Positions 36,477 through 44,700 of a stretch of 64,000 nucleotides of DNA are shown one piece after another (position 1 is the first letter of the stretch; every line of letters starts with the position of its first letter). Made by a program: the position numbers and the translations under genes. The DNA comes from Tetrahymena elliotti 4EA (lineage: Eukaryota; Ciliophora; Oligohymenophorea; Hymenostomatida; Tetrahymenidae), in NCBI GenBank assembly GCA_000231825.2, contig JH720301.1:1474123-1538122 (forward strand), read 5' to 3'. Below the pieces are notes generated by a model. That model worked only from the letters and a program-made list of their open reading frames with translations, did no database searches and was not told where the DNA came from.

Positions 36477-36998
36477 TCATTTTTTAAAAATAACTTGGTT
36501 GATAAGATAATTATCTGAAAGATCATTTACTTTATTTGCTAACTTAGTGCTTTTTTATGTTTATTTTTTTTTGATAGGCTTTTATGCTGCTTCGTTATTA
36601 TCTTTTTAAACTATATTTTATTCTTGATGATCAGGAATATTTTATGCTTAAGAGGAATTATCAGCTTTAATATTGATAATTTCATTTTTGTTATCTTCTT
36701 ATTTTTAAGCATTTTTTTCATATTTTTTGATAGCTTTCATTTTCTTTTTATATTCTGCTTTCTCTTTTTTATAGTTCTTTTATGCTTTTTCTTCTAAATT
36801 CAAATATCTTTACATGTCTTAATCTGGAAGATCACTAAACATCTCTTTGACTTTTTTTGCAATTTAACTTTATTTTAGCTTAGGGTCTTCTTATTTAAGC
36901 TTCAAACCTACTTCTTAAAGGTAATGATGGAAAGCAGATTAAGGAGGTTTTGGCTTTTATAATTTTTTTTCAATATCTTCTTATGATTGCTTAATCAT
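36477..36998 (-). CDS. HMG-box protein
   Basis: A single exon encodes 173 residues. Residues about 12-80 form an HMG box (QKPKPPQSAFHHYLQEV, IAKKVKEMFSDLPDQDMQ, YKKEKAEYKKKMKAI), the three-helix fold that binds and bends DNA. The remainder is Gln/Asn/Lys-rich and disordered. The HMG region is clearly paralogous to that of the gene at 40,039-40,758: both start with K-P-x-P-P-Q-S-A-F and share IAKKVKEMF. This copy ends at TGA 36479-36477 without any selenoprotein domain. Proteins of this size with one HMG box act as chromatin architectural factors. It lies only 80 bases downstream of the calpain start on the same strand. Confidence 0.85.
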
Positions 36999-38814: not shown

Positions 38815-39920
38815 TTTAAATAATTTATGTGTATTGAGTTTGAGTGTTTGTTATGTTTTTTGACCAAAGCCAAGAAAGAGGCTGCTGCTAACTTTGAGAT
38901 AAAGTTATGTGTTTTAAAATTCAATATTTTCACTTTTTTTTGTTTTATTAATGATTATCAGAAATAATTACAATTTCAGATGAAAATTTTTAAAAAGATG
39001 CATAATATAGATAAACTGATTGCACCTCATAGCTAGTAAATTAATATTTAATTTTTTCACCTTAGTAGTTCATTTTATGAGAAATTATCTAATTAATTAC
39101 AAACCAAGTAAATATTTTTAATTATTTTGCAATCAGTAATTGTATGACTAACTTTATATTTTCACTGCGTCACTTTTTTGAAAATAAATCTTACAACCAT
39201 TTTTGCAAAAATATAATCTGCCTAATCCTATTTAATTTCATCTTTAGTCCAAATAATTTTATGTGTTTTCTATTAAATTTAATTCTATTTTATCATATTG
39301 AATTAGCCTTAATAAAAATATATGTCTATCATAAATTTTGCTAGAATATTCTGTTCTTGCTGAAAGTCTTCTAATACAAATAAATTCAATAAATTCTATT
39401 ATTTTTCATCTTTGAAATTATTTTCTAACGAAAATGAATGGATAATTGAATATATTTAATCAATAAAATTACAAATACACAAGTTTTTTAGATAGTTACA
39501 CATGAAAACTACCCTATCTATACTTGAATCATAATTATCTATTTGCATTTATTTTCTATTCTATTTAAATTTATTTCAAAAAATGATTGTCTTTTAATCG
39601 AAATTAAGCATTTCATATTTTTAATCCAACTTAATCAATAATTTTTTGATCATAAATGTATTATTTAAATTTATTTTTATTTTTAATTTGAAATAATTTT
39701 TTTAATTAATTGAAGTCATTAATTTTAAATGGTTTATCATCACTCAGACTTTATAATAGTGATACAGTTATTCAATTCGATTTCTAGCTGAAAACATAAA
39801 ATAAAAGATTTAATTTGTAAATATTTTGATTAAATTTATTTATTGACATAATACAATAAAATAAATAAAATATAATAGCTAAAAAGCAAGATTATTGCTT
39901 AAAAAAGTCATTTTGTTCAT
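38815..39920. other. Intergenic between Mpv17 and the selenoprotein gene
   Basis: This is 1.1 kb of AT-rich DNA. A 66-codon ORF at 39144-39344 (+) is hydrophobic low-complexity sequence and is not supported. The 3' UTR of the selenoprotein gene should lie just to the right. Confidence 0.5.
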
Positions 39921-39973
39921 AATATTAAGCTTCATTAGAATTTACTTGAATACTAATCATTTATCTTTAATAA
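39921..39973 (-). promoter_or_regulatory. Candidate SECIS element in the 3' UTR
   Basis: Read on the minus strand, ATGA (39960-39957) is followed by TTAG-T-ATT, a loop containing AA (39947-39946), then AAT-T-CTAA and TGA (39934-39932). TTAG/CTAA and ATT/AAT pair, with one T-T mismatch, which places TGA opposite ATGA in the SECIS quartet arrangement. Lower-stem pairing TATTAA/TTAATA supports the fold. The upper stem (8 pairs) is shorter than usual. It starts about 80 bases after the stop at 40,039. A second, weaker ATGA lies at 40015-40012. Confidence 0.4.
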
Positions 39974-40038
39974 ACATTAAATCCAGGTTTTTAGGTATTA
40001 TAAATTTATAGTCATAAATTAATTTGTTATTTGTGTTT

Positions 40039-40758
40039 TCATTCTTTAATTTCATCCAAAACCTTTTTGAATTCATCCAAGGTTTTGGCTGTTATTTTTT
40101 ACTTCAAAACGTTTTTTTTGTTATTCCATATTTCTATTTCTTCTTTTTCTCCTTACTTCTAGTAGACTACTTCTAGCCTACCTTACTTATCTTTTAGAGG
40201 AACACCTACAACTTCAGCACCAGGGAATCTCGATGAGATGGCCTTGCTAGCTAAGCCGTAAGAGTTTCTGAAACCTCACCCTTAGCAGTATCTAACTGTG
40301 AAAGTTAAGCCACAACTCTTTTTAGTAGGTTCTTTTTTTATACCCTTTTTAGTTGGTTCCTTTTCTTTTTTAGCAGGTTCTTTATCTTAGTTATCAGAAG
40401 TAGAATTATCCTCTTATTTGCTTTTACTTTAGCTTTTTTCCTTTTTGGTTTCTTGAGCCTTTCTTGTTTTATTCGGTAATTCTTAAGTGTCCTCCTTATT
40501 TTTCTTCTTGTATTCAACTAATTCTTTCTTGTATTTTTCAAGTTCCTTCTCTTCTATCAGTTGATATTTTTACATTTCTTCATCTGAAAGATTTTCAAAC
40601 ATCTCTTTTACCTTTTTTGCAATAGCACTCTATTTCATTTTAGGATCCTTTTATTTAAGCTTAACACTTGCCTCTTCAAAGTAATAGTAAAAGGCAGATT
40701 ATGGAGGTTATGGCTTTTAGATTTCTTTATTTGTTTCTTATTTTACTTTTTTACTCAT
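40039..40758 (-). CDS. HMG-box/selenoprotein H fusion with in-frame TGA (selenocysteine)
   Basis: One exon of 240 codons, ATG 40758 to TGA 40041-40039, encodes 239 residues if the internal TGA at 40278-40276 is read as selenocysteine 161. Residues about 10-80 are an HMG box (KPQPPQSAFYYYFEEAS, IAKKVKEMFENL). A Lys-rich linker with EPTKK repeats follows (about 85-150). Residues 150-239 are an Rdx/selenoprotein-H-like thioredoxin fold: beta strand LTFTVRYC, motif C158-Q-G-U161, helix GFRNSYGLASKAI, then RFPGAEVVGV, RLEVVY, IEIWNN and TLDEFKKVLDEI. Selenoprotein H is a nucleolar, DNA-binding redox protein in animals, so joining it to a DNA-bending HMG box is coherent. Conventional reading would stop at residue 160, in the middle of the conserved motif. 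Splicing out the TGA would need a 12-nt intron, which is unrealistic. A frameshift or sequencing error is not needed because the frame continues unbroken. Confidence 0.88.
40276..40278 (-). other. In-frame TGA read as selenocysteine
   Basis: This is codon 161 of the HMG/SelH gene, in the context TGC-TAA-GGG-TGA-GGT. It occupies the U of C-x-x-U. TGA is otherwise the only stop in this window. Confidence 0.85.
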
Positions 40759-41715
40759 GATTTTTTGTATTTATTTTGATATTAATTTTTATTCAAAGAT
40801 ATTTCAAAATTTTGTTTTTTAAATTAATCAAATTTTAGAGCCAATTTTTTATAATTTTTTGTAAACGAATCAATAAATAATTGGTATCAATTTTCAAATT
40901 TCATTTTTGAATTTAAAATGTTTTGTTTTAGATTAAAGTTATAAAAATTGATAAATTTGAATAAAATTGTTAAATTGCATCAAGATAATAATATTTTTTT
41001 TTTAGTCTTTTAAGAATAGAGGAGGTTTTAGATTGAATAAATAGTTTTACAGAAATTTCTTTTTTACTCAAAGCCCATCATTGAAGTAAAATATAGTAAT
41101 TAATCAAAGGCCACAAATAAGATACATAATTTTAAATAAAAATTTGAATTTTTGTTGTTTTAGCTCTACACTCAGTCATCAATAAAATTAGTAAAATTTT
41201 AATAAAAAATTATATATTAGATAGGATACATTCTTGTTTAGTTAAGTAAATAAAAAGTTTATTTTGTAATGAAAATAAAATTTTTTAAATTTATTAATTT
41301 AAATTTAGTATATTAGTAAAAATAAAAAATACTATCTTCATATTTATTATTGATTTTTCAAGTATTCTTTATTATAAACATCAAATAAAAAATTAAATAA
41401 AATCTTTGGGATTTTATAAATAATTTGTGAATGTTAAGATATTTTTGAAATAGTCAACCTTTTAAAATTTAAAATATTTAATTTGAATAACTAGAAATAC
41501 CAAAAGTTTTAGATATTTTATTTGATGTAAATTTATGGCAAAAAAAAATATGAATAAATTTTTCAGATTTGAAAAATAAGTTATAAATTTAGAGATGATT
41601 TTATTTAAAAAATAAAAAGAAATATTTTTAGATATTATTAATTAACTATTTAAACAATAAGATAAAATTAGAATCAAATAAATTTTAAAAAGCAAGTAAA
41701 TTATTAATGAATAAT
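40759..41715. other. Intergenic, AT-rich
   Basis: This spacer of nearly 1 kb lies between the HMG/SelH start and the end of the Q/N-rich gene, both minus strand. No supported feature. Confidence 0.6.
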
Positions 41716-44700
41716 TCATATTTTATATGATAAATCTTTACTTGGCTTAACAGGATTTTATAGAAAAGGTTTCTTTTATTTAAGGTCATTGTATAGTTTT
41801 TCAAAAGTTTTATTTTTTTTATGTTATGGCTGGATATGAAGGCCTGATTGATAAGAAAAAGGTCTATTTTCATTACTCTCTCCTTTCACATTATTTTTAT
41901 TTAGACTACTTAATTGTCTATTCAAGTTTTATTCATTTTTTTATAAGTTAAGTTCGTCAATTAATGAATCATCTTAAATGTAATCACTATCTCTTTACTA
42001 CTTTTAGACTTGAGTTTATATATTTTCTTCTTCATTTTCATCACTAGAGAAACTATTGATAATATTTTGTAAAGCTCTTTTCATTGAAATTGTTCTATTA
42101 TTTGAAGGCTTTTATGAGAGTAAGTGAGATAAAGAATCATATGCTACTTAATTTTGATCTTAATACTTCAACAATCTATCAGTTTTACTACAATTCAATT
42201 AAACTTAAGAAGGAGAAATATCTCTAGAGCTCTTAAGAGGGAGTCTACTATTATCTTTTGACTATTATTCATAGCTTTCATTTTAAATTCCTCCTAAACT
42301 TTAATGATTGCTAATTTACTTTCTTAAATTAGAATAGAAATCATTATTACTAAATTTGTTTTTATCATTTTATTTAACCTCTTAATTTTATCTACTAAAT
42401 GAGAGATGATTGCAATTACTAGATTTTAGCTCAAAGCTATCTTTTTTATATAATCTCGAAGAGTTGGCCATTTACTTATTTTACTAATCCTTAAATGAAA
42501 TATTTAATGCCTTACTTTATACCCTTTCTCTAGGACTACTATCTTGTTGATAATTTACTGATTGTTCTTTTTCACTCTTTTATAAATTTTTTCTATGATT
42601 TTCTAAAAAGGTGTTGAATGTATATGGCTTAGATGATGTTTACTAAGTACTCTATTATGCATTTTAATTTTTAGGGATATCATTTTAAACAGAATTCTTT
42701 TTAAAATGCTTATTGAAAATAGTATTTTAATTTATGATTCTATTTTCTTCTTCTGATTTATTATGTTTACGTACTTTCGAAGAAGACTGATTATTGGAGT
42801 GTATTCTACTTCTTTCTTAATCATTGCTATTTATTGCTGCATTACTGAAATTAAGCTTAGAATCATTTAAGTTTTTATTATTTTTATTTGAGATGGGAGA
42901 ATTTGATTCTTTATTCTATTTCTTATTAATTGAAATATTTTTAGATTTAGAATTATAATTATTTTTATCATCATTTTATCCCAAGATCTCAACTTCATCA
43001 TTCTCATGCTACTCTTCCTTGCTTATAGTGTGATTTTTTTTGCTATCAACTTATAAGGTTTTAAGTAGTTAAACTGAGTCTTAAGTCTATTTATGTATCA
43101 TACTATTCAAATATGTGTTGTTCATATGAGAACTTATCGAACTTTTATTTTTACTAGTAAAAGAACCCTTCTTCAAAAAGTTGCTATTATCAAGTCTGTT
43201 TATGAATTTTTAAGGTTGTTATTTAGATATTTATCCTGGGATATTGTTTTTAAATACTGTCTGGTTAGTTAAGTCATCGAAAATTGATCTTTTTTCTGCA
43301 TCTTGTTAATTTTGGCTAGAATGCTATAATTACCATCCGCTTTTAACTGAAAAATTTAAATTAGAATTTTGAGAGTCATCTCTTTGCTTTGTATTGCTTG
43401 AATAATGATGGCGTGATGTTAAAAATAAATTTTTCACTATCTCATCCTTACAATTTTCTAAAACAGGGCTGCCTATACCAGATTTATTAGAATTGATACC
43501 CAACTTCTTATCTGAATGGAATGAATCAAAATTCAATTCTTTTTATTTTAAAATTAATATTAAAAATTTCAAATAAGTTAAAAACAAAAATTTTACTTTT
43601 CTTTGAAGAGTTAGATAACACTTCTTAGAGTTTAGAATTGTTTTTTAAAACTTTAGAATTAGAATCCAAGTTTTCAATCTTTATTTTTTTAGAAGAAGAC
43701 CCTTTTGGACTGATTAAATTCAATCTATTTTTTATAATTTGCAATAATAATAAATAATTAATTCCACATTATGTTTAAGCTTAAATTTGCAAAAGAATAA
43801 AGTTAATTTACAGATCTTGTTTTGGTGAAGTTGAGATGTAACCAAAGTTGAGGTATCCACCAGATTTTCTAAATAATTAAGATTTAATTAAAAAAATTAA
43901 TTTTAATGCAAATAATATCTTACTTAGAACTAGATTCGAATTTTTATGAAACTTAAGAAATATTTTTTAGATTATTCATGCATTATGTGTTTGGAGATTT
44001 CATCTTAGTTTGGGCTTAGTTGATATATTGTTCTTAGTTTTCTTTATTATCTTTTGATGAAGAGCAGTAGTTATTTACAAGAGGATCTGTTTTCTTTTTC
44101 TCACAGGATAATTTCAAATAATTTTAAGTAGTGCTTTCATCTTCATTTTATTTGTTTTAGACTATATTCTCTTTGTTTATTTGCAACTACTTTTCTTAAA
44201 TGATATTTTTATTTTTCTCTGAAGATATATTATCTTTATTCTGACTATCAGTTTCATTCTTTTTGTTTAAAATATTTGTGTCCTCTTTAGCAGCTTTTAA
44301 GGGTTACTTAGGGCTTTCATATTTTTCTTTTAAATTTTCCTCTTTATCTTTTGTTTAAGAATTTGTTTTAGAACTTTCATTTTTGTCTCCTGATTGATTA
44401 CACTTTTAAGAGCCTGGATTGGTACTGTTATATTAACTTTCCTCATTTTGTATTATTAAATCAATCTTTGATTAAATTCTTTCATTCATGAACTCTTCTG
44501 TCAAAAGAATAACAGATGGTTTTATTCCAGTATATATTTAATTATTTCTCATTACAGAAGGTATTATAGTTAAAGCTGGTGCATTTTGTTAGACAAAACC
44601 ATCTATTAAATAATAATTATTTTTTTTATATGGGATATATTCAAAGACTCTGTTTTTAAAATTTTAAACTGGTAAGTTAAGTGAAGGATCATGCAAATGC

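Follow-up and report, generated by a model that had tools for sequence, protein, structure and literature searches.

A likely selenoprotein gene of Tetrahymena elliotti that joins an HMG box to a selenocysteine-type Rdx domain

A fundamental question raised by this locus is whether a TGA codon lying inside a long reading frame ends the protein or is translated. The gene occupies positions 40039..40758 on the minus strand of a 64,000-nucleotide stretch of contig JH720301.1 from Tetrahymena elliotti 4EA (the window), and a sequence-only reading had described it as a selenoprotein H domain fused to an HMG box. Computational analysis finds the frame, its domains, a hairpin of the selenocysteine insertion sequence (SECIS) type and most of the selenocysteine (Sec) machinery. 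The locus is likely to be a genuine selenoprotein gene, encoding an HMGB-type chromatin protein that carries a Sec-containing Rdx thiol oxidoreductase domain.

Translation with the ciliate code bears out the predicted 239-codon frame, which starts with ATG at 40756-40758, terminates in TGA at 40039-40041 and contains one internal TGA (codon 161, 40276-40278). This codon falls exactly on the U of C-Q-G-U (40276..40287), the catalytic position of a C-x-x-U active site, and 78 residues follow it in the same frame. Is the downstream frame still in use? One hypothesis is that the TGA is a true stop, such that the gene yields only a 160-residue HMG protein and the Rdx frame beyond it is a relic. The deposited T. 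utriculariae orthologue ends there and a neighbouring paralogue is HMG-only, both of which agree with this hypothesis. However, a relic frame would be expected to drift, and both codon usage and base composition are still those of coding sequence after the TGA. Scored against 3252 codons from conserved exons of the same genome, the 78 post-TGA codons give log-odds of +50.8 bits, a score that none of 2000 base shuffles reaches; the five remaining frames give 1.4 to 17.8 bits. Every one of the 24 frame readings of four 3′-flank segments is negative, and the GC fraction is 0.35 after the in-frame TGA versus 0.17 in the flank. The coincidence of CxxU with the TGA, the complete predicted fold and the SECIS-type hairpin downstream argue in the same direction. 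A true stop is thus considered highly improbable, and codon 161 very probably specifies selenocysteine.

The predicted protein has three parts, and Pfam HMG_box, Pfam Rdx and the translation together support the proposed fusion of an HMG box, a Lys-rich linker and an Rdx domain with Sec at CxxU. Residues 16-84 (40507..40713) match the HMG box (Pfam PF00505, 41.1 bits, cut-off 25.4); the corresponding PDB sequence matches are HMGB1, HMGB3 and HMG protein 2, and AlphaFold2 places helices at residues 22-37, 43-55 and 59-92, as in a three-helix HMG box. A linker rich in Lys, Glu and Gln follows (residues 85-149, 40312..40506) and is mostly predicted to be disordered, with a predicted local distance difference test score below 50 for residues 93-147. 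The remainder (residues 150-239, 40042..40311) is assigned to the Rdx thioredoxin-like family by a Pfam match spanning residues 154-216 (31.2 bits against a cut-off of 22.6, with Cys substituted for U), by its CxxU motif and by a complete thioredoxin-like fold in the model. The full-length model has a predicted template modelling score of 0.38, and the mutual placement of the HMG and Rdx domains is undefined in it. NCBIfam TIGR02174 scores 25.4 bits on the protein, under its cut-off of 34.2. As a point against the assignment, Pfam finds no Rdx at E<=10 in the 78 post-TGA residues taken by themselves, and recognition of the domain requires sequence from both sides of the TGA.

Could splicing remove the TGA instead? 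Introns occur in 71% of T. thermophila gene models, as given in PMC2612030, and such an event is conceivable on those grounds. However, excision would delete the CxxU motif, the alignment with the SelW-like genes of this genome runs through that motif without a gap, and the T. utriculariae gene model has no intron at that point. An intron is the least probable of the readings considered here, with a negligible chance of being correct.

Does the gene carry a signal that would direct decoding of the UGA? A SECIS-type hairpin lies 78 nt past the stop at 39916..39960 on the gene strand. Its sequence, AUGAUUAGUAUUCAAGUAAAUUCUAAUGAAGCUUAAUAUUAUGAA (39960 to 39916), forms 11 base pairs with one bulge and presents the core UGAU/UGAA, an apical AAA and a mini-stem. 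Ciliate glutathione peroxidase (GPx) SECIS elements are described in PMC7409322 as lying in 3′ untranslated regions (UTRs) at a mean of 76 bases from the stop with the core UGAN/KGAW, and the same core notation applies to the type of hairpin seen here. Three methods, namely a loose scanner, a covariance model and a strict scan, report the element. The loose pattern ([AG]UGA, helix, AA, helix, GA) finds a candidate in 6/6 T. thermophila SECIS (PMC2612030 Table 2), and the hairpin is its sole site on the gene strand in 1.5 kb 3′ of the stop. The hairpin is also present within the minimum free energy structure of the 342-nt 3′ flank, with pairing probabilities of 0.81-0.99. Six other SECIS went into the covariance model, three from this genome and three from T. 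thermophila, and the hairpin itself was left out; run with filters off on both strands of the 64 kb, the model returns the hairpin as its best match (24.4 bits, E 0.0048), followed by matches of 20.7 and 20.1 bits. The strict scan gives two sites in the window, the hairpin (-4.9) and one other (-1.8), and only 2 of 3000 shuffled 3′ flanks contain a site that satisfies the strict rules, in neither case one as good as the hairpin.

Several points weigh against the hairpin or limit what each method can say for it. When both strands of the window are scanned loosely as 84 stretches of 1542 nt, 6 contain a site at -4.9 kcal or better, a count that very probably takes in the gene's own hairpin, and for this reason the loose-scan energy alone is only suggestive. 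The six SECIS of the covariance model were chosen after the hairpin had been seen, for a gapless alignment of 45 positions that equals the hairpin's length, so the model favours it somewhat; the strict rules were likewise set afterwards. A 100-nt local fold prefers a different structure, and Rfam gives no match at E<=10 over 39000-40900. The 342-nt flank as a whole is of unexceptional stability (z -0.96), and therefore only the local hairpin counts. The silence of Rfam is weak evidence since five of eight other Sec loci are also unlisted: in a control of nine loci (Sec loci L001, L005, L006, L019, L021, L025, L031 and L032, and the Cys-type L003), SECIS_1 is given for L005, L019, L032 and L003, all under cut-off. 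A control of the covariance model on 23 loci, with six Sec genes outside the training set, divides these genes into two groups. A SelW-like gene (L005), a thioredoxin reductase (L029) and a GPx gene (L019) score strongly at 30.1, 28.1 and 27.5 bits, respectively. SPS2 (L025, 18.3 bits), a second SelW-like gene (L006, 16.4) and a SelT-like gene (L001, 14.8) score at the chance level of the window, which also counts against the hairpin; in L006 an off-site match even outscores the true SECIS. With three of six held-out genes at chance level the sensitivity of the model is middling, and the 24.4 bits of the hairpin fall between the strong and the weak true cases. PMC7409322 also reports Sec-containing ciliate GPx genes in which no SECIS was detected, as well as the converse. 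A SECIS-type element 3′ of the stop is present by these analyses, with post hoc choices in both the model and the rules.

An alternative hypothesis is that Cys or Trp is inserted at the UGA, with no role for selenium. Stop readthrough and changes of code are generally known to occur in ciliates, and a SelW-like protein (P0007) is written with W at the U position, which may reflect the translation code only. What does the genome itself, searched as 90 Mb in 134 contigs, provide for decoding? A tRNA-Sec with a UCA anticodon is found by Rfam at 62.5 bits, with four further matches under cut-off; ARAGORN did not detect it. SepSecS is present (421 bits), as is SPS2 with a UGA in GUG and a SECIS, although its selD exons, at 109.9 and 72.4 bits, both fall short of the cut-off for the whole protein (125). 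With tRNA-Sec, SepSecS and SPS2, the genome encodes most of the Sec machinery. Further UGA genes comprise three Rdx genes, each with a 3′ SECIS (a SelT-like gene with CTGU, L001, and SelW-like genes with CGGU and CGSU, L005 and L006), two GPx genes with CKUG and UGA as U, and three thioredoxin reductases ending in GCUG-stop (L031), SCUA-stop (L032) and TCUA-stop (L029). All nine other UGA genes, SPS2 included, have a SECIS on their 3′ side, found by the scanner or, for L029, by the covariance model. The position of the UGA at the catalytic U, the other UGA-Sec genes with their SECIS, the tRNA-Sec (UCA) and the Sec synthesis genes argue against readthrough, as do the termination of the gene itself in TGA and the four following segments without coding signal. 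Insertion of Cys or Trp is considered extremely improbable, and decoding as selenocysteine is the preferred reading.

How have other gene sets treated this protein? Among 1008 annotated candidates, a whole-protein search returns T. utriculariae P0003 as the sole protein at E<=0.001, and it returns no orthologue from T. thermophila or T. malaccensis. P0003 is a "hypothetical protein" of 155 aa whose C-terminus (...TFTVRYCSG) lies one residue before the U position; a gene finder has thus cut the protein at the Sec site, as had been predicted. The arrangement of HMG box, linker and first strand, together with the break point, is common to the two gene sets. It counts against the proposal that this single orthologue is known as protein up to the TGA only. 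The Rdx half alone gives no relatives at E<=10 (4 candidates). A profile of five Rdx sequences gives 6 proteins of 56-104 residues; its candidates were limited to 0.55-1.75 times the query length, and thus only the whole-protein search could show an HMG fusion. In the genome itself, a first search for the Rdx family missed the gene, and a search with the whole protein recovered it. Two T. malaccensis proteins (P0005 and P0009) resemble SelW proteins annotated only from the Met after the UGA. Because deposited gene sets truncate some Rdx selenoproteins in this way (P0003, P0005, P0009), Tetrahymena selenoproteomes are probably under-counted. The T. thermophila list of 2008, as given in PMC2612030, holds six selenoproteins, without SelH, SelW or SelT, and the families of L001, L005 and L006 are missing from it.

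To which Rdx subfamily does the domain belong? Its active site, YCQGUGF, has G and an aromatic residue after U, a YCxxUG[FY] context that is the pattern of SelW and MIEN1. In the PDB, the Rdx half has a single sequence match, MIEN1/C17orf37, to which the five-sequence profile adds mouse SelW; lectin and hemagglutinin rows in the profile search were discarded as plainly spurious. Mouse SelW is among the seven best fold matches; the other six are bacterial entries, of which three have SelW-related or Se-binding titles. The VIA-align chain list holds no SelH chain, so the absence of SelH among the fold matches is no evidence against it. Whole-domain alignment scores are 61 for human SELENOH, 63 for SELENOW and 77 for MIEN1, and 104 for L005; for the post-U part SELENOH, SELENOW and MIEN1 score 50, 31 and 36, respectively, and L005 65. 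The SelW-like genes of the same genome, L005 and L006, give the best scores among those compared. A ten-row tree supports 1 of 7 inner branches, with long branches for SELENOH and for the present protein. Motif, whole-domain scores and structural matches point to MIEN1 and SelW, and the post-U part lies nearer to SELENOH than to SELENOW or MIEN1. The protein is probably best described as an Rdx selenoprotein that is SelH-like in plan, and the label "selenoprotein H" is not established. It shares motif, PDB and fold matches and L005/L006 scores with SelW, MIEN1 (Rdx12) and bacterial SelW-like proteins, but SelW is a free single domain whereas this Rdx domain is joined to an HMG box. SelH itself is reportedly, by the title of Panee 2007, a redox-sensing DNA-binding protein of the HMG family. 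Vertebrate SELENOH is described in PMC10650576 as nucleolar, with an AT-hook and, at its N-terminus, an RKRK motif; its binding to DNA elements of the heat-shock and stress responses is reported there. The two proteins have in common an Rdx fold with CxxU plus a DNA-binding part, and differ in the full HMG box, the long linker and the SelW/MIEN1-like active-site context of the Tetrahymena protein.

What might such a protein do? In the mechanism that we propose, UGA codon 161 would be decoded as selenocysteine because the mRNA would carry the SECIS in its 3′ UTR. The HMG box suggests a nuclear, DNA-binding protein. Its DNA-binding and bending domain would be tied to a SelW/SelH-like Sec Rdx fold through a linker that is long, basic and flexible, and box and linker together would keep a C-x-x-U thiol-selenol oxidoreductase on DNA or chromatin. 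The linker would let the redox domain reach neighbouring proteins, and the selenol would attack oxidised thiols of chromatin proteins, either reducing or sensing them, as proposed for vertebrate SelH. From these features we infer transcription of the hairpin, Sec insertion, nuclear location, DNA binding and redox activity, and a chromatin-tethered redox sensor may fairly be proposed.

A refinement compatible with this selenoprotein reading is that the product is bifunctional and gated by selenium, with HMG box and linker made when Sec is scarce and the HMG-redox protein when it is available. The UGA follows a complete HMG box and basic linker, so a truncated form keeps the whole DNA-binding part, failed Sec insertion would leave a paralogue-like HMG protein, and a selenium-dependent switch is possible for that reason; to judge by the HMG-only paralogue, a protein of that kind seems viable in this genome. 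On general grounds, however, the short form would carry an orphan beta strand at its end and could be subject to degradation, and its mRNA might face nonsense-mediated decay. We regard gating as unlikely though worth entertaining, and the same doubt attaches to the broader idea in which decoding of the UGA ties the redox equipment of chromatin directly to selenium status and the architecture dates from the gain of a Sec Rdx domain by one member of an HMG gene pair.

The architecture suggests a redox enzyme tethered to chromatin, the synthesis of which may be tied to selenium supply. Vertebrate SelH is reportedly nuclear and DNA-binding, and a protein from in or near a genetically tractable genus that unites a Sec redox domain with a full HMG box would be a second version of that idea. 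HMGB proteins are not known to carry an Rdx domain. A full-text literature search gave no HMG-box selenoprotein in a title or the start of an abstract among the papers listed, with subscription papers mostly outside its coverage. Algal fusions of SELENOM with pVHL or ShKT domains (PMC7539508) likewise join a Sec redox domain to a foreign domain, but the families and partners are different; "hmg" has 0 occurrences in the main text of that paper.

A 173-aa HMG-only paralogue (36477..36998, minus strand; HMG box 49.8 bits) lies ~3 kb downstream of the fusion gene, with 41 of 71 aligned residues identical. Both proteins share the HMG box and basic tail of HMGB-type proteins, whereas the paralogue has no Rdx match, and the SECIS model gives no minus-strand match on its 3′ side between 36000 and 36477. 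Two more HMG-like matches elsewhere in the genome are weak (29.6 and 25.3 bits). Most simply, one member of a pair of HMG genes would carry a Sec Rdx domain that either it gained or its partner lost. Of the neighbouring frames, 41719-43125 gives nothing in Pfam at E<=0.1, and for 39165-39548 Pfam gives only a match under cut-off.

Among the other genes of the genome, two thioredoxin reductases (L029, L032) end in C-U-A-stop versus G-C-U-G-stop in L031, with a SECIS-type hairpin downstream of both. The Rdx gene L003 (1414-1893), in which CVSC puts Cys where Sec would stand, has a strong SECIS-like hairpin at 1850-1893 (35.7 bits; Rfam SECIS_1 24.3 bits, under cut-off). It is possibly a recent Sec-to-Cys change with the SECIS still in place, and could conceivably have a C-terminal Sec; the gene model of its T. 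utriculariae counterpart (P0006) lacks precisely the CxxC/U stretch, as if a TGA had been skipped. Finally, one Rdx-like match (L007) has a single TGA outside any CxxU, which is probably an exon edge.
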